64,000 bases of DNA, taken from positions 1,054,001-1,118,000 of the forward strand of contig NZ_CP040509.1 of assembly GCF_005845365.1 (NCBI RefSeq). Reading direction: 5' to 3'. The stretch is from Rhodoluna limnophila (lineage in GTDB: Bacteria; Actinomycetota; Actinomycetes; Actinomycetales; Microbacteriaceae). Positions 1,199-33,042 of the stretch are shown in pieces (the stretch's first letter is position 1; each line of letters begins with the position of its first letter). Under the pieces are notes generated by a model that was not told where the DNA came from, did not search any database, and saw nothing but the letters and a program-made list of their open reading frames with translations. The position numbers and the translations under genes are program-made.

Positions 1199-1235
1199 AA
1201 AGGTCTAGACTTGGGGTTGGGAAATGGAGAGAGAC

Positions 1236-1922
1236 ATGGCTCAAATCTTGGTTTTGTCGGCGTCAGCCGAATCCGAGATTTTGCCTGCCCTTGGGTTTCT
1301 AAGTCATCGAGTTCGCCAAATTGCGGCTGAGCCAGCAAACCTAGTTAACGCTCCCGGCCACGACCTAATTTTTCTCGACGCTCGCCGCGACCTTGCCAGC
1401 GCAAAGTCTCTCTCAAAAATCTTGCAAACCACCGGGATCAGCGCTCCACTTATTTTGGTAGTTACCGAAGGTGGCCTTGCAGCGGTGACCGCTGAGTGGG
1501 CCGCGACCGACATCATTCTTGAGAGCGCCGGCCCAGGCGAAATCGATGCCCGAATTCGACTTGCAATTGGCCGCCAGACCCAGACCGAAAAGGTTGACAA
1601 GATCCATGCCTCTGGTGTGGTCATCGATGAGGGCAACTACTCGGCCAAGGTTCACGGTCGACCATTGGACCTTACTTATAAAGAATTTGAATTGCTGCGC
1701 TTTTTGGCTCAGCACCCGGGCCGCGTTTTTACCCGTGAACAATTGCTGAGCGAAGTTTGGGGTTACGACTACTTTGGTGGTACCCGAACCGTGGATGTTC
1801 ACATTCGGCGCCTGCGCGCCAAACTCGGAGATCTTGAGGCGCTCATCGGAACCGTTCGAAATGTTGGTTACCGATTCAATTTGCCTGAAGACTCGGACGC
1901 AATGTCTTCAAGCATTCGTTAA
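1236..1922 (+). CDS. GlnR-type orphan response regulator (winged helix)
   Basis: About 228 residues from ATG 1236. That start is preferred over the in-frame ATG at 1224 because GGAG at 1226-1229 is well spaced for it. The N-terminus resembles an atypical receiver domain (LIFLDARRD around residues 47-55). The C-terminus is an OmpR-type winged helix: [41 protein letters not shown] and a final [24 protein letters not shown] is characteristic of the GlnR/orphan group that controls nitrogen and, in some actinobacteria, phosphate genes. No sensor kinase lies nearby, as expected for GlnR, which works without phosphorylation. Its neighbours are ppk, a MutT1-like gene and pst, so a role in phosphate or nitrogen balance is plausible. 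The exact regulon is inference. Confidence 0.75.
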
Positions 1923-1939
1923 CTCTCTCTTTACCCAAC
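1918..1939 (+). promoter_or_regulatory. Weak PHO-box-like direct repeat upstream of ppk
   Basis: GTTAACT at 1918 and CTTTACC at 1929 are spaced by 11 nt, the phase of actinobacterial PHO-box units (GTTCACC consensus), and point towards ppk. The first unit overlaps the stop codon of the regulator gene. The match is poorer than at pstS and pit, and there is little room for a normal promoter before the ATG at 1958, so this is only a candidate. Confidence 0.25.
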
Positions 1940-1957
1940 CGTGGCAGGATAAAGAGT

Positions 1958-4087
1958 ATGTCTTCTGAAGAAACCATGGCCATTGCTGTTCCTGACCTAG
2001 GCACCGAACTGCGTGCGGACCGCTTTTTAGACCGCGAGCTGAGCTGGCTGGCATTTAACCAGCGCGTGCTGGAACTTGCCGAAGACCCAAACCTGCACCT
2101 GCTTGAGCGGGTTAACTTTCTGGCAATTTTTGCCTCTAACCTCGATGAATTCTTCATGGTTCGAGTTGCCGGCCTAAAGCGAAGAATTGCAACTGGGCTT
2201 GCTGTGACCTCTAGCTCAGGGCTTTCTCCTCAGGATGTACTGAGTGAAATTAGCCGCGAGGCACACCTGCTGCAAAGCCGCCACGCAAGCCTATTTATCG
2301 ACACCATCAAGCCAGCCATGCGCGAAAAGGGCATCCGGATTGTCCGCTGGGCTGCCCTCGATGAGGCTGAAAAATCTTCACTCCACGATTATTTCCAGAA
2401 CCAGATTTTTCCGGTGCTGACCCCGCTTGCCGTTGACCCAGCCCACCCATTCCCTTACATTTCTGGTCTTTCGCTGAACCTAGCGGTCGTAGTACGCAAC
2501 CCTGACAACGGCAAGGAGCACTTTGCCCGCGTGAAGGTCCCGCCGCTACTTCCACGCTTTGTGCGCATCCCGGGCAACACCGGTGTCACCGATGCACGAT
2601 TTGTGCCGCTCGAGGACATCATCGGTGAATTTATGGGTCTGCTTTTTCCGGGTATGGATGTTCTTCAGCAGCACACCTTTAGGGTTACTCGAAATGAAGA
2701 CCTTGAGGTTGACGAGGACGAGGGCGAGAACCTATTGGTTGCCCTTGAGAAAGAACTTTTGCGCCGCCGCTTTGGCCCACCGGTTCGACTCGAGGTGGCC
2801 AACGACATCAACCCTCAGGTTCTCGAGCTACTGATTCGCGAACTTGATATCTCAGATGAAGATGTTTACCACCTACCGTCTCCGCTTGACCTGACCGGTC
2901 TTTTTGAGATTGCATCGCTGAAGCGAGCCGACCTGCACTACCCACCTCACCCGGTGATCACCAACCGGTTCTTGCAGCCGGTTGAGGACAAAGATGTAAG
3001 TATTTTTGCGGCTATGCGCCAGCGGGATATTTTGGTTCACCACCCATACGAGTCGTTCTCAACCTCGGTCCAAGCTTTCGTCGAGCAGGCAGCAGCCGAC
3101 CCTAAGGTGCTAGCTATCAAGCAAACCCTTTACCGCACCTCGGGTGACTCACCAATTGTTGACGCGTTGATTGATGCAGCAGAAGCCGGTAAGCAGGTCT
3201 TGGCGCTAGTCGAGATCAAGGCCAGATTTGATGAGCAAAACAACATTGCCTGGGCACGCAAACTAGAGCAAGCCGGTGTTCACGTGGTTTATGGAATCGT
3301 TGGCCTCAAGACCCACTGCAAGCTTGCACTGGTGATTCGCCAAGAAGGCAACCAGCTCAAGCGCTACTGCCACGTTGGCACCGGAAACTACAACCCAAAA
3401 ACCGCCCGTTTTTACGAGGACTACGGTCTATTCACCTCGCGGGATTCAGTCGGCGAAGACCTCACCAAGTTGTTCAACCAACTTTCCGGCTATGCACCTG
3501 ACTCACAGTTCAAGTCGCTTTTGGTTTCTCCGAACGGTGTGCGTCAGGGTCTGCTCGAGCGCATCCAACGTGAGATTGATTTCAAGGCGGCTGGGCACGA
3601 TGCTCGCATCCGAGTCAAGGTCAACTCTTTGGTGGACGAAGAAATTATCGATGCGCTATACAAAGCCTCGAATGCCGGCGTAAAGGTTGAGGTTCTGGTG
3701 CGTGGAATGTGTGCCTTGCGACCAGGCGTACCAGGCCTCAGCGAAAACATCACCGTTAGATCTGTGCTGGGCCGATACCTTGAGCACTCGCGTATTTTTG
3801 GTTTCAATGGCGGGGGCGACCCAGCATTGTTCATCGGATCAGCCGACATGATGCACCGAAACCTTGACCGCCGCGTCGAGGCCTTGGTACGAATTTCTCA
3901 GCCTGACCACATCAAAGAGCTCAACAGCTTCTTTGATTTGGCGATGGATGACAACTCGGCATCTTGGCACCTTGGCGCCAACGGCAAATGGTCCCGCCAC
4001 CAGTACACCCTCGAGGGCACTCCACTCACCGATGTTCAGGACCACATCATGGCGGATGTCTATTCAAAGCGAAAGTCGCGCGTCTAG
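1958..4087 (+). CDS. ppk: Polyphosphate kinase 1
   Basis: 709 residues, normal PPK1 length. It transfers the gamma phosphate of ATP reversibly to long-chain polyphosphate. The N-terminal domain opens with [16 protein letters not shown] and [22 protein letters not shown], the family signature. The two phospholipase-D-like catalytic domains carry [17 protein letters not shown], whose His472 corresponds to the phosphorylated histidine, and [13 protein letters not shown] with the second catalytic His633. The next gene overlaps its stop by 1 nt (TAGTG), so ppk and the MutT1-like gene are translationally coupled, the same pairing as in mycobacteria. pstSCAB lies 2 kb downstream on the other strand, so phosphate storage and uptake are clustered. 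The start ATG 1958 follows an AGGA element about 9 nt away. Confidence 0.96.
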
Positions 4088-5067
4088 TGACGATTTTTGC
4101 AGCAGGCGCCGTTCTTTGGCGTGAGGTAGAGGGCAAACTTTCGGTCGCAGTGATTCACAGGTCACGCCACAATGACTGGAGCTGGCCAAAAGGCAAAGTT
4201 GACCCAGGCGAGTCACTGCTTGAAACCGCAGTTCGCGAGATCAAAGAAGAGACCGGCCTTAGCGTGAAACTCGGTCAACATCTAAAAGTTGTTAACTACA
4301 CCGTTCCATCTGGCGCGCCAAAAGAAGTCCATTATTGGGCAGCAAGGGTAACGGATTCTGCCCTGGCCAAATCAACCTTTGAGCCGTCTGAAGAGGTTGC
4401 CAAGGTTGACTGGATGCCACCGAGCGAAGTCATGAGCTTACTGACCTACCAGTTTGACCGAGACGTGCTTGAAGTATTTCTAAAACAGCACGAAGCTGGC
4501 CTTTTGCACACCAAACCAATTCTGGTTTTACGCCACGCAAAGGCAACGCTGCGCACCGATTGGTACGGTGGCAAACCTAAGGACGACGGTAGTCGCCCTC
4601 TGCTGCCGGCAGGTTCGGAGCAAGCCGAAAAACTAATCCCGGCTCTGGCAGCTTTTGGAATCAAGCGCGTTATCACCAGCCCTTGGCTGCGTTGTGTGAG
4701 CACTGTCGCGCCATATGCAAACGCGCGAAACCTGAAAATTATTGAACGTTCTCAGCTGAGCGAATTAGGCAATAAAAAGGGCCCAAAGCGGACTCAAAAT
4801 GTGGTCCACGACATTATCGAAGATGGCCGACCGAGCATTATTTGCTCACATCGCCCAGCCCTGCCAACCATTTTGAATACTCTTGCAGAGTTTGCCGACG
4901 AAAAGTTGTCCAAGCGCATTCTGAACGCTCGCGACCTCAAACCGGCCGAATTTGTTGTAATTCATATGACTAAATTGGTGCCCGGAAAAAAGCGCAAGGT
5001 GGTCTCGGTTGAGCGTTACACCGCCCAGCCGCCGGTGGACTCAACCATCGAATCGGCCGTCGCTTAG
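4087..5067 (+). CDS. mutT1: NUDIX hydrolase fused to histidine phosphatase (MutT1-like)
   Basis: 326 residues from a GTG at 4087 that shares one base with the ppk stop codon. The frame is open further upstream, but that stretch lies inside ppk and is not conserved. The N-terminal NUDIX domain has a complete box at about residues 36-58 (GKVDPGES, then REIKEETGL). The C-terminal domain is of the SixA/histidine phosphatase type: VLRHAKATLR, with the nucleophile His near residue 150, TSPWLRC, and CSHRP with the second catalytic His. This two-domain plan next to ppk matches mycobacterial MutT1, which hydrolyses 8-oxo-(d)GTP and diadenosine polyphosphates. Family knowledge supports nucleotide sanitation; the link to polyphosphate is contextual. 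Confidence 0.88.
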   Translation: MTIFAAGAVLWREVEGKLSVAVIHRSRHNDWSWPKGKVDPGESLLETAVREIKEETGLSVKLGQHLKVVNYTVPSGAPKEVHYWAARVTDSALAKSTFEPSEEVAKVDWMPPSEVMSLLTYQFDRDVLEVFLKQHEAGLLHTKPILVLRHAKATLRTDWYGGKPKDDGSRPLLPAGSEQAEKLIPALAAFGIKRVITSPWLRCVSTVAPYANARNLKIIERSQLSELGNKKGPKRTQNVVHDIIEDGRPSIICSHRPALPTILNTLAEFADEKLSKRILNARDLKPAEFVVIHMTKLVPGKKRKVVSVERYTAQPPVDSTIESAVA

Positions 5068-5076
5068 ACTGTCACG

Positions 5077-5967
5077 ATGAAGAAAACCTCATGGGCAGCA
5101 CTTGCCCTTATTAGTGTTGCCGTTTCATGGGGTGCCGCATTTGTGCTGATGAAAGACGCCATTGCCGATCAGCCTTTTTATGATTTTCTAGCGATCAGAT
5201 TTACCATCGCGGCGGCAGTCCTGATTGTTTTCAAGCCAAAGGTTTTGCTGGCTTTTGACAAGACCACTGTTAAACACGGAGTGCTGCTCGGTGCCCTCCT
5301 TGCCGTTGCCTACTTCACCCAAACCATCGGTCTTGAGCTGGCATCAGCTGCCATCACCGGCTTTATCACCGGGCTTTACGTGGTTTTGGTGCCAATTTTT
5401 GGTTGGTTACTTTACCGCTCTAAGGTCAACAAGCGCCTGGTTTGGGGCGTGATTCTTGCCACCGGCGCACTTGCGCTCATCTCAATCAACGGGTTCTCCA
5501 TCGGTGTTGGCGAACTATGGGTAATGCTGTGTGCCGCCCTATTTGCCGCGCACATTATTGGCCTTAGCAAACTCAGCCCAGGCAAGGACGTGTACGCCTT
5601 GACCGTACTTCAGCTTCTAACGGTTGCCGCCATGAGTTGGGTTGGTGCCCTGGCCACAGATGGCTATCAGGCTCCGGTTGACGGTGCCGGCTGGTTTGCC
5701 GTGCTGTTCACTGCGATTTTCGCCACCGCGCTGGCCTTCTTGGTTCAAACTTGGGCGCAATCGATTATGGACGCCTCACGCGTTGCAATTCTGCTGACCG
5801 GAGAGGTGGCATGGACCGCAATTATCGCGGTTGCAGTAGGTCAAGAAGAGCTTGGGCTCAAGACTCTCATCGGTGGAGCGCTGATGACCGCCGCGATGCT
5901 AATTGTTGAATGGCCTTCAAAGAACAAGGATGAGCCGGAGGTTCTGCTCGAACCTCTTGTGCACTAG
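5077..5967 (+). CDS. EamA/DMT-family transporter
   Basis: 296 residues with about ten predicted membrane helices in two tandem EamA halves. The first half opens with AALALISVAVSWGAAFVLMKDAI, and the end of that half has ITGFITGLYVVLVPIFGWLLY, the usual family pattern. The second half ends TGEVAWTAIIAVAVGQEELGL, then a helix and a charged tail. Members export amino acids or other metabolites across the cytoplasmic membrane; the substrate cannot be read from sequence. It begins 9 nt after the MutT1-like gene and so is probably in the ppk operon. It converges on pstB, with 8 nt between the stop codons and no visible terminator hairpin. Confidence 0.85.
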   Translation: MKKTSWAALALISVAVSWGAAFVLMKDAIADQPFYDFLAIRFTIAAAVLIVFKPKVLLAFDKTTVKHGVLLGALLAVAYFTQTIGLELASAAITGFITGLYVVLVPIFGWLLYRSKVNKRLVWGVILATGALALISINGFSIGVGELWVMLCAALFAAHIIGLSKLSPGKDVYALTVLQLLTVAAMSWVGALATDGYQAPVDGAGWFAVLFTAIFATALAFLVQTWAQSIMDASRVAILLTGEVAWTAIIAVAVGQEELGLKTLIGGALMTAAMLIVEWPSKNKDEPEVLLEPLVH

Positions 5968-5975
5968 TCGCTGGA

Positions 5976-6755
5976 TTACCCGAAGCGCCCTGAGATGTAG
6001 TCCTCGGTCATTTTCTCGCTAGGGTTACTGAAGATCACCTCGGTCTTGTCGAACTCAATCAACTTGCCCGGTGCCCCAGTGGCCGCGATGTTGAAGAAGG
6101 CAGTTTTGTCTGAAATGCGGCTGGCCTGCTGCATGTTGTGAGTCACAATCACAATCGTGTAGCTGTCTTTTAGCTCAAGAACGAGGTCTTCGATGGCCTG
6201 CGTAGAAATTGGGTCAAGGGCTGAAGTCGGCTCATCCATCAAGAGAACCTGTGGTTCAACCGCAATTGCGCGGGCGATGCAAAGGCGCTGCTGCTGGCCA
6301 CCTGATAGTCCGGCACCAGGTCGGTCCAGACGGTCCTTTACTTCGTTCCACAAGTTAGCGCTGCGCAGTGATTTTTCGACAAGTTCTTCGGCAGCTGACT
6401 TTGACTGTTTCTCGTTGTTCAATTTAAATCCGGCGAGAACGTTGTCACGAATCGACATGGTTGGGAACGGGTTCGGGCGCTGGAAGACCATGCCTACTTC
6501 ACGTCGAACCAAAACTGGGTCCACGCCGGCTCCATAGAGGTCCTTACCGTCAATTAGAACTTGACCCTTGGCTGAAGCACCCGGAATTACCTCATGCATG
6601 CGGTTTAGAGTCCGGAGCAAAGTTGACTTTCCGCAGCCAGATGGACCGATGAACGCGGTCACACTCTTTGGTTCAATATCAAGATTCACGCCTTCAACAG
6701 CAAGAAAGCTGCCGTAGTAGACGTTGAGGTCTTTGATTTCGATTCTCTTGGCCAT
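5976..6755 (-). CDS. pstB: Phosphate ABC transporter ATP-binding protein PstB
   Basis: 259 residues from ATG 6755; the frame extends further upstream but that part overlaps pstA and is not PstB-like. The product starts [20 protein letters not shown]. Walker A is GPSGCGKST (residues 37-45), the ABC signature is [14 protein letters not shown] and Walker B is [13 protein letters not shown], followed by the switch histidine in [11 protein letters not shown]. These are the standard PstB motifs. It energises high-affinity phosphate import with PstC and PstA. It starts 8 nt after pstA with AGGGA as ribosome-binding site, and is the last gene of pstSCAB. No phoU follows. Confidence 0.97.
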
Positions 6756-6763
6756 TTGATTCC

Positions 6764-7639
6764 CTATCGAGATAGCTTGCGGTTGAAATAAGCGGAAAGC
6801 GCCCGGGCCCCAAGGTTTAGGGCAAGCACCAAAACAATCAAAACTAGGGCTCCGGCCCAAGCACGATCAATGTACGCCTGGGCATCGGCACCCTGGCTTG
6901 AGTAAGACGAGTAAACAAACACAGGCAGAGTCATCATTCGTTCGTAGAACGGGTTGTAGTTCATGCTCTGGGTAAAACCGGCAACGATTAGCAGGGGCGC
7001 TGTTTCACCGATTACGCGCGAGATGGCAATCATGATTCCGGTGATGATTCCGGCAGACGAGCTAGGCAACACGACCTTCATGACGGTTAGCCACTTCGGA
7101 ACACCTAGTGCGTAGGAAGCCTCGCGAAGTTCGTTAGGGACCAGTTTCAGCATTTCTTCAGCAGACCTGATTACCACTGGAGTCATCAGCAAGCTAAGTG
7201 CAACTGCTCCGGCAAAGCCCATTCGTACACCAGGGCCAAACGCGATCGCAAATAGGGCAAACGCAAATAGGCCGGCAACAATCGACGGAATACCAGTCAT
7301 TACGTCAACGAATACAGTGACAGCACGGGCCAGGCGGCCCCGCCCATATTCAACCAAGTAAATTGCGGTGAGCAAACCGATCGGAACCGAAATGAGCGTT
7401 GCCAGCAACGTGATTTCGACCGTACCAATGATGGCGTGCAGCGCACCTCCACCAGCACCCACAACATTGCGCATCGAGAGTGTGAAGAAATCTAGGTCGA
7501 AGCGCGCAGCCCCTTGAGAGACCGCGGTAAATAGCAGCGAGATGAGAGGAAGGATGGCGACACCAAAAGCCGCGAAGATGGCAACCGTGGCAAGACGGTT
7601 CTTCAGGTGGCGACGCTTTGCAAGGGTCAAGAATCGCAT
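6764..7639 (-). CDS. pstA: Phosphate ABC transporter permease PstA
   Basis: 291 residues with six predicted membrane helices and the binding-protein-dependent permease (EAA) loop: [22 protein letters not shown] followed by [12 protein letters not shown]. The segment [21 protein letters not shown] is typical of PstA. Together with PstC it forms the inner-membrane channel for phosphate. Its ATG at 7639 overlaps the pstC stop codon by one base (TAATG), and pstB follows after 8 nt. The length is normal and nothing is missing. Confidence 0.96.
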
Positions 7640-8556
7640 TAGTTTGCTCCTGAGAACTCGCGGCGACGATTAACAATGGCTCTGGCTGACATGTTTACCA
7701 CCAAGGTGATAGCAAACAGGACTAGGCCAGAAGCAATTAGTAGGTTCACACCCAGGCCGCTTGCCTCTGGAAAGTTCAGGGCAATATTTGCCGCGATGGT
7801 ATTTGAGTTGGTTGAGGTAAGCAGGGCAAATGAAATAACGGCAGCCGGTGAGAGAACCATTGCCACCGCCATGGTTTCACCGAGTGCTCGACCTAGGCCA
7901 AGCATTGCTGCCGAAATCAAACCTGGGCGCCCAAATGGCAAAACGGCCATCCGGATCATCTCCCATTTGGTTGCACCCAAAGCCAGTGCTGCCTCTTCGT
8001 GCAGTTTTGGGGTCTGGAGGAATATCTCTCGAGCCATGGCACTCATAATCGGCAAAATCATGATGGCAAGCACAATTGACACCGTAAGAATTGTTCGGCC
8101 GGTACCGGACACCTGGCCGGTAAAAATAGGCAAGAATCCTAGATTTTCGTTGAGCCAAACATAGGCCGGCTGAACTGCTGGAGCCAAAACTTGAATACCC
8201 CAGAGCCCAAAGACCACCGATGGAATAGCGGCCAAAAGGTCGATTACGTAACCGAGGCTTTGGGCCAGTTTTCTTGGCGCATAGTGAGAGATAAATAGGC
8301 CGATGCCGATGGCGAGTGGAGTTGCAATTGCCAAAGCAATTAGAGCGGAGAAAATAGTTCCGAATACGAATGGCACCACGTAGGCCAAGAAGCCATTTTC
8401 GGCGTTTGGGAGATCTGCCGGGTTAGCAATCAGTGCAGGCCATGCCTGAACCATCAAAAATATTGCTACCGCAGCCAGCGCTGCAAGGATCACAGAACCT
8501 GACCAGATGGTTAGACCGCTGAATATACGGTCTGCCAAACGGATTTTGGTCTTCAT
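7639..8556 (-). CDS. pstC: Phosphate ABC transporter permease PstC
   Basis: 305 residues from ATG 8556, preceded by a CAGGAG ribosome-binding site; the frame is open for 29 more codons, but those lie in the hairpin region between pstS and pstC. It has six predicted helices and the EAA loop ALGATKWEMIRMAVLPFGRPGL, followed by GRALGETMAVAMVL, which is highly typical of PstC. It is partner of PstA in the phosphate channel. It lies 62 nt after the terminator-like hairpin that follows pstS, so it is probably translated from read-through transcripts at a lower level than pstS. Confidence 0.96.
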   Translation of the reverse strand: MKTKIRLADRIFSGLTIWSGSVILAALAAVAIFLMVQAWPALIANPADLPNAENGFLAYVVPFVFGTIFSALIALAIATPLAIGIGLFISHYAPRKLAQSLGYVIDLLAAIPSVVFGLWGIQVLAPAVQPAYVWLNENLGFLPIFTGQVSGTGRTILTVSIVLAIMILPIMSAMAREIFLQTPKLHEEAALALGATKWEMIRMAVLPFGRPGLISAAMLGLGRALGETMAVAMVLSPAAVISFALLTSTNSNTIAANIALNFPEASGLGVNLLIASGLVLFAITLVVNMSARAIVNRRREFSGAN

Positions 8557-8617
8557 CTCACTCCTGTTTACCTGAATCACGAAGCTGAAATCGGTGGAAA
8601 TTAACCTGTAAAACAAA

Positions 8618-8652
8618 GGTGCCTGCTTAAGACTACGCCCCAAGCAGGCACC
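8618..8652 (-). terminator. Hairpin between pstS and pstC (partial terminator)
   Basis: Reading the minus strand, GGTGCCTGCTT (8652-8642) pairs perfectly with AAGCAGGCACC (8628-8618) around a 13-nt loop and is followed directly by TTTGTTTTAC. This has the form of an intrinsic terminator 10 nt after the pstS stop codon. As pstCAB have no other obvious promoter, it is probably leaky and gives more PstS than membrane components. Confidence 0.7.
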
Positions 8653-8662
8653 CCCGCACTAC

Positions 8663-9739
8663 TTACTTGATTGCTGAAACTACAGCGGTAACCTTTGCGG
8701 TTAGAGCGGCACTCAGTGGTGCTGAGCCAGCTGAGGCTGCAGCGTGTGCCTGGCCCTCGGTGCTAACTAGGTATGAGGCGTAAGCCTTTACCAATGCACC
8801 CACGGTTGGGTCTGCGTACTCGTTGCAACCGATTAGGTAGCTAACTAGAACTAGCGGGTAAGCGCCTGCTGCAGTAGTTGCACGGTCAATCTTGATTGCA
8901 AGGTCAGTTGCATCGCGGCCCTCAACTGCAGGTGACGCATCAACAATTGCTGCAGCTGACTCGTTGCTTAGCGCTACAAATTCTTCGCCAACCTTTAGCT
9001 TGGCGATTGAAAGCGAGCCAGCCTTTGAAGCGTCTGCGTAACCGATGGTGTTGGTTCCGTTAGTTACAGCATCAACAACACCCGAGGTACCCTTGGCACC
9101 CTCACCTGACTGGTAAGGGAATACGTCGCTAACTTCGCCATCCCAGATTGACTCTGCGGTCTTGCTTAGGTAGTCAGAGAAGTTTTTGGTGGTACCTGAA
9201 TCATCTGAACGGTGAACCGCAGTGATGTTAGCTGCCGGCAGGTTTGCCTCTGGGTTGAGAGCAACGATTGCTGCGTCGTTCCACTTGGTGATGTCGCCCT
9301 TGAAGATTCCAGCAATTGTTGCTGCATCAAGGTTCAAGTCAGTCACGCCCTCAACGTTGAAGATAACGGCGATAGGAGAAATGTAAACCGGAACCTCGAA
9401 AGGAGTGGTTCCAGGAGCACAGGCAGCAAAGGTTAGAGCCAATTCTTCGTCTTTTAGGTAAGAGTCAGAGCCGGCGAAGTTGACTGCACCAGAGATAAAT
9501 GATTCGCGACCAGCACCTGAACCGGTTGGGTCGTAGTTGATGGTGACTGCGCCGTTGGCAGTCTGGAAAGCCGCAATCCAGGCTTCCTGAGCACTACCCA
9601 TTGCAGATGAACCAGCACCATTTAGGGTGCCGCTTAGAGAGTCACCGTTGGTTGCGCCTTCATTTGCGGCACAGCCGGTGAGAGCAATAGTTCCAGCGAT
9701 TGCAAGGCCTGCAATCTTCAGTGCTGATTTCTTGATCAT
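8663..9739 (-). CDS. pstS: Phosphate-binding lipoprotein PstS
   Basis: 358 residues. The signal peptide ends in the lipobox LTGC with Cys23 as the lipidated residue, so the protein sits on the outer face of the membrane. The mature part has the phosphate-binding signatures LNGAGSSAMGSAQEAWIAAF, YDPTGSGAGRESF and AVHRSDDSGTTKNFSDYLSK, which supply the Ser/Gly/Asp/Arg ligands of phosphate. It is the first gene of pstSCAB. A PHO-box-like repeat lies just upstream and a hairpin just downstream, both suggesting phosphate-controlled, high-level expression. The ribosome-binding site is AAAGGGA. Confidence 0.96.
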   Translation of the reverse strand: MIKKSALKIAGLAIAGTIALTGCAANEGATNGDSLSGTLNGAGSSAMGSAQEAWIAAFQTANGAVTINYDPTGSGAGRESFISGAVNFAGSDSYLKDEELALTFAACAPGTTPFEVPVYISPIAVIFNVEGVTDLNLDAATIAGIFKGDITKWNDAAIVALNPEANLPAANITAVHRSDDSGTTKNFSDYLSKTAESIWDGEVSDVFPYQSGEGAKGTSGVVDAVTNGTNTIGYADASKAGSLSIAKLKVGEEFVALSNESAAAIVDASPAVEGRDATDLAIKIDRATTAAGAYPLVLVSYLIGCNEYADPTVGALVKAYASYLVSTEGQAHAAASAGSAPLSAALTAKVTAVVSAIK

Positions 9740-9785
9740 TTAGTGTGTATTCCCTTTCATGTGAGTACATGAATAGGGTAAAAAG

Positions 9786-9818
9786 CCAAGGTTAATTGAG
9801 GCAGTTTGTTTGGTTAAC
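9786..9818 (-). promoter_or_regulatory. PHO-box-like direct repeats upstream of pstS
   Basis: On the minus strand three 11-nt units run GTTAACCAAAC, AAACTGCCTCA, ATTAACCTTGG towards pstS. The outer two match the PHO-box core (GTTCACC/GTTAACC) and are exactly 22 nt apart; the middle one is degenerate. A possible -10 (TACCCT) follows, so the repeats would occupy the -35 region, as at PhoP-activated promoters in Streptomyces. The pit gene has the same repeats. Confidence 0.6.
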
Positions 9819-9843
9819 AAAAGGTGTACAAATCATTCATTTT

Positions 9844-31442: not shown

Positions 31443-31715
31443 TTAGCCCATGTGGAAATACGGAACGATTAGGTAAATTCCGTAGAGCACTGATGCTGCA
31501 CAAATGGTGAACATCACGTATGCGCCAATTCGGAACAACACCTCGCGTGGATTGGTCGAATCGCGCACCTCGAGCGATGGGCTCTTTTCAGTGGTTTCTA
31601 GAATGTGGCGAGCGTTGGTCAACCAACGCATGCCCAACGAAAATGCTGCGGTGATAAAAACGCTGGCACCGATGGCTACTCCAGCCACTAGCAATAGGGA
31701 ATCCCACTTAATCAT
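31443..31715 (-). CDS. Small membrane protein linked to Pit (90 aa)
   Basis: 90 residues with two membrane helices (about residues 8-30 and 63-86) joined by a charged stretch (NARHILETTEKSPSLEVRDS). The C-terminal segment ICAASVLYGIYLIVPYFHMG resembles small proteins found directly after pit genes in Microbacteriaceae, from memory. The ATG overlaps the pit stop by 1 nt (TAATG), so it is very probably an accessory protein of the phosphate transporter. No direct function is known. Confidence 0.65.
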   Translation of the reverse strand: MIKWDSLLLVAGVAIGASVFITAAFSLGMRWLTNARHILETTEKSPSLEVRDSTNPREVLFRIGAYVMFTICAASVLYGIYLIVPYFHMG

Positions 31716-32944
31716 TATTTGCCACCCTTTGCATTTGCTGCTGCCTTTTTAGCTGCTGCTGCGGCTTTTGCCGCTGCCTTACGAACCTCACGCGGTGAGG
31801 CAATTACCTCAGATGCGCCTTCAACTTCACTCAAAACATTGGTGTGAGTGATTCGGTTGCGACGTGAAATCTGGAAAATTGCGATTGAACCGGCAACCAC
31901 CAAAACGGTGTCAGCCAAAAGACCAACCGGGCCAGACAGCACTAGAAGTGCAGAAAGAGCACCGACACCACCTGCAGCAGGAAGCGTTAGCAACCAACCG
32001 GTCACAATGTGACCAGCCTTGGTCCAACGGATCTGACCACCTTTGCGACCAAGGCCAGCACCCATCACACCACCAGAAGCCACCTGAGTGGTTGAAAGCG
32101 CAAAACCGAGGTTGCTTGAAGCCAAAATTGTGGCTGCGGTTGAAACCTCTGATGCCAGACCCTGTGCCGGCTTGATCTCTGAAAGACCGGTGCCCATGGT
32201 CTTGATGATTCGCCATCCACCAGCGTAGGTGCCTGCTGCAATGGCAACGGCAGCACCGATGATTACCCACCACTCAACGTGGTCACCGGTGGACTGTAGG
32301 CCAGCGGCCACTAGAACCAAAGTGATGACACCCATGGTCTTCTGTGCATCGTTGGTTCCGTGCGACAGTGCAACAAGTGATGAAGTGAAAACCTGACCAA
32401 CCTTGAAGTTGGTACGACCGGTTCCAATGCCTGTGGCCTTGCGGGCCTCTTGTGAACGAGCGGTTAGGAAGTAAGCCACGCGGGTAGCCAAGAAAGCTGC
32501 CAAACCGGCAATCACCGGAGCGAATAGCGATGGCAAGACCAGCTTTTCGAGCACAGCTGGGTAGTTGACAGCAGCAAAACCGCCGTAAACCAAAGCCGCA
32601 CCGATGAGGCCGCCGAAGAGAGCGTGTGATGAAGATGAAGGAAGACCTAGCAACCAAGTGGTTAGGTTCCAAAGAATGGCGCCGGTCAGACCAGCAAAAA
32701 CCATTTCAGGGCCGATGTTTACGCCCTCGCTGATCAACGAAACCGAAATTGCCTTGGCAACAGCGGTTGACAGGAACGCACCGGCAAAGTTCATCAGCGC
32801 TGCGATTAGAACGGCAGTGCGAGGCTTAAGTGCACCAGTCGCAATAGCGGTGGCACTCGAGTTTGCGGTGTCGTGAAAACCGTTGGTGAAGTCAAAGAAA
32901 AGCGCAAGGCCAACAACGAGCCCCACTACGAGTATTGGATCCAC
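31715..32944 (-). CDS. pit: Low-affinity inorganic phosphate transporter Pit
   Basis: 409 residues, about ten helices. Both PiT-family signatures are present: GFHDTANSSATAIATGALKP near the N-terminus (the GxNDxxN motif in its HDTANS variant) and SLVALSHGTNDAQKTMGVI in the middle. It imports phosphate, often as a metal-phosphate complex, using the proton gradient. The C-terminal tail is rich in Ala and Lys (EVRKAAAKAAAAAKK). A PHO-box-like repeat precedes it, which is notable because pit genes are often constitutive. It is coupled to the 90-residue membrane protein. Confidence 0.95.
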   Translation of the reverse strand: MDPILVVGLVVGLALFFDFTNGFHDTANSSATAIATGALKPRTAVLIAALMNFAGAFLSTAVAKAISVSLISEGVNIGPEMVFAGLTGAILWNLTTWLLGLPSSSSHALFGGLIGAALVYGGFAAVNYPAVLEKLVLPSLFAPVIAGLAAFLATRVAYFLTARSQEARKATGIGTGRTNFKVGQVFTSSLVALSHGTNDAQKTMGVITLVLVAAGLQSTGDHVEWWVIIGAAVAIAAGTYAGGWRIIKTMGTGLSEIKPAQGLASEVSTAATILASSNLGFALSTTQVASGGVMGAGLGRKGGQIRWTKAGHIVTGWLLTLPAAGGVGALSALLVLSGPVGLLADTVLVVAGSIAIFQISRRNRITHTNVLSEVEGASEVIASPREVRKAAAKAAAAAKKAAANAKGGK

Positions 32945-33009
32945 GGGATACTTTCTACTTAGTGACCGGGAGATTGACGCTTAGCAAACGGAAGCCAAAC
33001 ATCCTGTTT

Positions 33010-33042
33010 ACTTTAGAAACTAAAGGTTAACGCAAGGTGAAC
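33010..33042 (-). promoter_or_regulatory. PHO-box-like direct repeats upstream of pit
   Basis: On the minus strand GTTCACCTTGC (33042-33032) is followed immediately by GTTAACCTTTA (33031-33021): two adjacent 11-nt units, the first an exact GTTCACC core. A third unit GTTTCTAAAGT is weak and contains a possible -10 (TAAAGT). The box begins 6 nt after the galM stop codon. It matches the element upstream of pstS. Confidence 0.6.

Follow-up and report, generated by a model that had tools for sequence, protein, structure and literature searches.

A conserved PHO box ahead of the low-affinity phosphate transporter gene pit in Rhodoluna limnophila, in a predicted activator position

PhoP-type boxes ahead of actinobacterial pit genes are already known, and the pit gene of Rhodoluna adds a further case. 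For Streptomyces coelicolor, a review describes PhoP-protected 11-nt repeats at pitH2 and a PhoP-dependent expression that rises in starvation (PMC7866108), whereas another account, contrary to that review, has pitH2 appearing PhoP-repressed in S. coelicolor as well as in P. rosea (PMC8269224). In Microlunatus, PolR is reported to bind a GTTCAC repeat at two pit promoters (PMC6754071), and a pitA-lacZ fusion in M. smegmatis is described as constitutive, showing no change over 2 h of starvation (PMC2797804). For Rhodoluna itself, an estuarine study at no more than 0.6 µM P records transcription of pst and no detected transcripts of pit (PMC12422013). Where PhoP boxes lie downstream of a -10 element or over a -35 element, repression has been inferred from their position only (PMC7244524). 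The preliminary description of the locus studied here had called regulation of pit by such a box informative, pit genes being commonly treated as constitutive or repressed under phosphate limitation; the repeat itself is real, and the reports from S. coelicolor and Microlunatus precede it.

The window analyzed here is a 64,000-nt stretch of R. limnophila DNA (contig NZ_CP040509.1, positions 1,054,001 to 1,118,000). It holds pit on the minus strand (31715..32944, GTG start; Pfam PHO4, 4.4e-81), the only PHO4 gene in the 1.4-Mb genome. Read on the minus strand, positions 33042-33010 are GTTCACCTTGC-GTTAACCTTTA-GTTTCTAAAGT, 80 nt ahead of the pit GTG. Two adjacent repeat units facing pit, as had been proposed, are indeed present: unit 1 (GTTCACCTTGC, 33042-33032) has the core GTTCACC (33036..33042), and the promoter-proximal unit 2 (GTTAACCTTTA, 33031-33021) has the core GTTAACC (33025..33031). 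Scored as at least two GTTCACC-like direct repeats with an 11-nt period, the site reaches 13 to 14 of 14. The span of 33010-33042 first given for the repeats also takes in a weak third unit, GTTTCTAAAGT (33010..33020), which keeps the 11-nt register and overlaps a predicted -10 element, TAAAGT (33010..33015), 9 nt downstream of unit 2. The trinucleotide AAC follows immediately (33006..33008), and a likely ribosome-binding site, AGAAAGT, was read by eye at 32950..32956; all of these elements lie on the minus strand.

Immediately upstream of pit lies an aldose epimerase gene and no pap (DUF47) gene, which is the arrangement of PitH2-type importers. The upstream neighbor of pit varies within the genus, being galM on the same strand in the window and co-directional or divergent genes elsewhere. 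The pit stop codon is overlapped by a gene for a 90-aa, two-helix membrane protein (31443..31715, minus strand), which we regard as a possible Pit partner encoded in the same operon and as a candidate Pit subunit replacing Pap. Neither Pfam nor NCBIfam gave a family for this protein at 0.001, and a script found a similar small ORF 3' of pit in 109 of 118 loci, although by eye two of these, L023 and L026, seem unrelated; on plasmids of Streptomyces, Kitasatospora, Mycolicibacterium and Tsukamurella the small ORF after pit is annotated as 'hypothetical protein'. Elsewhere in the window, a gene for a GlnR-like regulator, ppk and pstSCAB are clustered (1224-9739), which suggests a phosphate-nitrogen neighborhood.

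We found the box to be conserved in the Rhodoluna-like genus, whose named relatives are Rhodoluna MAGs. The pit gene is present in 23 of 67 genus genomes, in agreement with a reported 35% of Rhodoluna (PMC12422013), and one copy is cut by a contig end, leaving 22 promoters. The preliminary description had staked its reading on 11-nt repeats recurring upstream of pit in relatives, and a clear forward array is found in 17 of the 22 (L183 is counted at a score of 11, its variable base being T, and L186 is left out at 12, its match lying elsewhere, at -42); in the remaining five (L184 to L188) the array is degenerate or absent. With the near-duplicates L003 and L013 left out, 15 of 20 promoters score at least 12 of 14 on the forward strand (dinucleotide-shuffle mean 0.05) and 2 of 20 on the reverse, and among the first 12 genus loci all reach this score at spacing 11, as against 0 to 4 at other spacings. 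Unit 1 is conserved in the genus alignment, the G-T-T and the A of unit 2 are invariant in 11 aligned promoters, and at the position of the third unit the G is invariant and the TT mostly retained in 14. The AAC past the -10 is kept base by base in 13, 12 and 13 of 14 genus promoters. It is often part of TAAGGTGAAC, a reverse half-site (GGTGAAC) lying over the -10, and in the many genus members that have it, this half-site could serve repression at high occupancy.

The same operator type stands ahead of pstS (8663..9739, minus strand; above the cut-off of NCBIfam TIGR00975). Its units GTACACC and GTTAACC occupy offsets 0 and 11 (9812..9829, GTACACCTTTTGTTAACC), a promoter-proximal unit ATTAACC lies at offset 33 (9790..9796), and a predicted -10, TACCCT, at offset 49 (9775..9780), all on the minus strand. 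The pit box had been described as repeating this element, 23 kb away; it is of the same type, although no exact copy, with 15 of 18 bases identical. A sequence-only model built from 11 genus pit boxes matched the own genome twice at E <= 10. One match is pit (4e-10), the other the start of phoR (E 0.10), and the own pstS was not reported at that threshold. Run on 36 genus genomes, the model gave 31 with a match at E <= 1. The two runs together yielded 31 loci, of which 14 lie before pit (largely the sequences used for training, or near-copies of these), 13 before pstC and 2 before phoR-phoP. The matches at pst and phoR are singly weak (E 0.001 to 0.15) yet recur at Pho genes, and together with the own pstS they place a shared site before both pst and phoR-phoP. 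Two further matches, L174 and L181, have no counterpart among the 14 Pho and neighbor proteins compared and may mark further Pho genes. A PHO-box-like sequence, CATAACCTAGTGTTAACC (G000 C1 1049580-1049597, minus strand; L147), sits in the phoR-phoU intergenic region and ends two bases ahead of the ATG of the phoR/senX3-like gene. Many genus genomes (L166-L180) have a pst operon headed by pstC, whose identity with the pstC of the window is only about 33 to 39%.

A fitting regulator is encoded as well. Five OmpR-type regulators were found in the genome, and genes for a RegX3/PhoP-type regulator, a PhoR-like kinase and PhoU adjoin at 1047743-1050404 (G000), so that a cognate two-component system is present. 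The closest solved structure to the regulator is by far M. tuberculosis RegX3 (324 bits), followed by MtrA (208 bits).

Counting offsets from the first repeat unit and seeking the -10 as TAnnnT, we found that 15 of 17 genus pit promoters have this motif at offset 27, the exceptions by eye being the near-identical L012 and L013, as do all 20 Streptomyces-like pit promoters (family f34, genus g128). These 20 all carry a forward box scoring at least 12, one of them a reverse box as well, and spacing 9 reaches 12 in 8 of 20. At pstS, the own promoter and all 27 boxed promoters from other genera have TAnnnT at offset 49, which is exactly two periods beyond the 27 of pit, and the unit and the -10 thus keep their helical phase. 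Activation is predicted from this common phase and from E. coli PhoB, whose sites a published model sets over the -35 (PMC3348028). A forward array 9 nt from the predicted -10 is also the arrangement of a PhoP-activated PitH2-type importer. What we observe is the repeats and their conservation, an operator common to pst and phoR, a shared geometry and a regulator encoded in the genome, and we consider it probable that the pit box is a RegX3/PhoP PHO box in activator position, through which pit is switched on together with pstSCAB. When phosphate is short, a phosphorylated dimer of the RegX3/PhoP-type regulator would bind the 11-nt direct-repeat array, which would take the place of a missing -35, facing pit and stopping 9 nt short of the putative -10. 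From that position and gap, the bound regulator would be expected to recruit RNA polymerase to the predicted start site and to induce pit and the small membrane gene along with pstSCAB. The earlier suggestion that pit falls under the same regulation as pstS thus appears supported by the conservation in the genus and by the model's recovery of pst and phoR-phoP.

Resemblance by chance, to a site with no function, has in its favor that a loose pattern is common. The window contains 20 copies of the heptamer GTTCACC, a count reached by 0 of 100 shuffles, and because of this frequency it marks no site alone. The dimer at pit reads GTTCACCTTGCGTTAACC (33025-33042, minus strand). The 18-mer pattern has 2 occurrences in the window when 3 mismatches are allowed, which 35 of 100 shuffles match, and 45 genome-wide against 38 for a reversed-pattern control; we set both counts aside as uninformative, the 18-mer being no better than chance. 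The strict dimer GTTMACC-N4-GTTMACC, in contrast, occurs with at most one mismatch only twice in 1,398,704 bases, at pit (0 mismatches) and at pstS (1), with 1 for the control, in line with the original argument that recurrence at pstS makes chance less likely. As this pattern was itself derived from the pit and pstS sites, we relied on relatives, and the independent tests of the pit box are its conservation in the genus and the Pho genes recovered by the pit-only model. These contradict chance, which we hold to be extremely improbable. It is also very improbable, in our estimation, that the main user of the site is another regulator with a similar target, be it GlnR (window 1224-1922), MtrA or a PolR-like protein. 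PhoP, GlnR and MtrA are described as competing for overlapping sites (review PMC6988585), the Microlunatus regulator PolR recognizes this repeat at pit (PMC6754071), and R. limnophila has a detected GlnR_1st domain and an MtrA-like regulator recognized by eye; however, the set of genes that share the box in the genus, pst and phoR-phoP, is the one expected for RegX3/PhoP.

A more serious competitor, although still an unlikely one, keeps RegX3/PhoP as the true regulator and reverses the sign, such that pit would be repressed in starvation and uptake passed to Pst. E. coli pitB and the pit gene of S. meliloti are cited as repressed at low phosphate (PMC2797804), the apparent repression of pitH2 in P. 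rosea (PMC8269224) and the lack of detected pit transcripts in estuarine Rhodoluna at low P (PMC12422013) point the same way, and so does the conserved reverse half-site that overlaps the -10 in many genus members. Against this, the array shares its forward strand and its spacing to the -10 with pstS and with the Streptomyces-like pit promoters, and nothing resembling a -35 hexamer was seen under the repeats. We therefore continue to favor RegX3/PhoP as an activator of pit in Rhodoluna.

Outside the genus, the box at pit often lies on the other strand. Among 83 non-genus loci, mostly best identity matches, a score of at least 12 is reached by a reverse box in 29 and by a forward box in 3, with 0 to 3 reverse at other spacings. 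An evenly drawn Microbacteriaceae sample (106 of 121 other-genus genomes with pit) gave 22 reverse and 11 forward (1 both), against shuffle means of 0.10 (reverse) and 0.22 (forward) and 0 to 4 at other spacings. From other families of the class, 32 pit promoters in 30 hand-chosen genomes, the Streptomyces-like ones left out, yielded 19 reverse and 1 forward. Of 30 genomes picked for a pit score of at least 11 in reverse, 27 have a forward and 1 a reverse box at pstS, and 22 have a reverse and 1 a forward box at pit. On a quick Pit tree of 132 rows, some of them duplicates, the Rhodoluna clade and its sisters show a forward box in 20 rows, both kinds in 1, no box in 6 and a reverse box in 0, and the remaining 105 rows comprise 45 reverse, 2 forward and 58 none. 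Our first idea, that the box had flipped once, in the Rhodoluna lineage, was dropped, forward boxes being found in other genera of the family as well. In 12 such promoters TAnnnT lies at offset 27 in none and at 24 in three, and the forward strand alone is therefore no sign of activation. As for the possibility that a reverse box belongs to a divergent neighbor, which we discarded, 75 named loci whose upstream ORF strand was assigned by a crude script have a reverse box in 13 of 50 co-directional and 13 of 25 divergent cases, and a forward box in 1 of each kind. Plasmid-borne pit genes carry no box in 4 of 4 Streptomyces and in the one Kitasatospora case, score 12 in reverse in Nocardia and Tsukamurella, and 12 forward in Mycolicibacterium pallens, where pit (L374) lies two genes past an arsenate reductase gene. 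In Nonomuraea gerenzanensis, pit stands right behind a DUF47-like gene and has no box. The Microbacterium-type pit promoters L073, L080, L091 and L097 apparently contain three reverse units in the 11-nt register.

To speak of the same box at pit and pstS passes over strand and position, which probably set the regulatory sign; in many relatives the pit box is reversed. A reverse box at pit is probably not an activating one and might be repressive. We tentatively propose, as a possibility we rate below even chances, that PHO-box strand at pit acts as a polarity switch across Actinomycetes, with pit off or unactivated under reverse boxes when PhoP/RegX3 turns on pst, and co-induced with pst under forward boxes at activator spacing. 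The former arrangement would apply to many Microbacteriaceae, Micrococcaceae, mycobacteria-like and other families, and the latter to the streamlined freshwater Rhodoluna lineage and the Streptomyces-like group, which are placed apart. If true, one conserved regulator would control close pit relatives with opposite signs. We found no description of opposite PHO-box strands at pit in the literature searched, which left out most subscription papers. Forward boxes at pstS, combined with pit boxes whose strand differs between lineages, amount to a natural experiment on how the sign of a PhoB-family regulator depends on the strand and spacing of its operator. The two-orientation pattern also bears on how importer switching is rewired and may help to explain why published accounts conflict, describing pit as constitutive, as repressed or as induced. 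In this ultrasmall freshwater actinobacterium, which has a single pit gene and a single phosphate regulator, both importers are predicted to be switched on together in starvation.

The nearest described counterpart is pitH2 of S. coelicolor, which, as described, likewise has 11-nt GTTCACC direct repeats before a Pit gene without pap (DUF47) in front. The Streptomyces-like pit promoters of 20 genomes share with Rhodoluna the strand of the array and the 9-nt gap to TAnnnT. Rhodoluna differs in having two good units and a weak one where four core and two weaker units are reported for pitH2, in the overlap of its weak third unit and of the reverse half-site with the -10, and in possessing one pit gene whereas Streptomyces has two. 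Microlunatus phosphovorus resembles it in the GTTCAC repeats of 11-nt period, reported at pit, pstS and ppk, but PolR is presented there as a DevR-like regulator tied to oxygen (PMC6754071). S. meliloti pit and E. coli pitB, as cited in PMC2797804, are alike in placing a low-affinity transporter under the phosphate-starvation regulator; being PhoB-repressed, they carry the sign opposite to the activation predicted for Rhodoluna pit. Finally, the reverse PHO boxes of other actinomycetes share the unit and the 11-nt period upstream of orthologous pit genes, and differ in strand, position and predicted effect, which would be opposite or nil.
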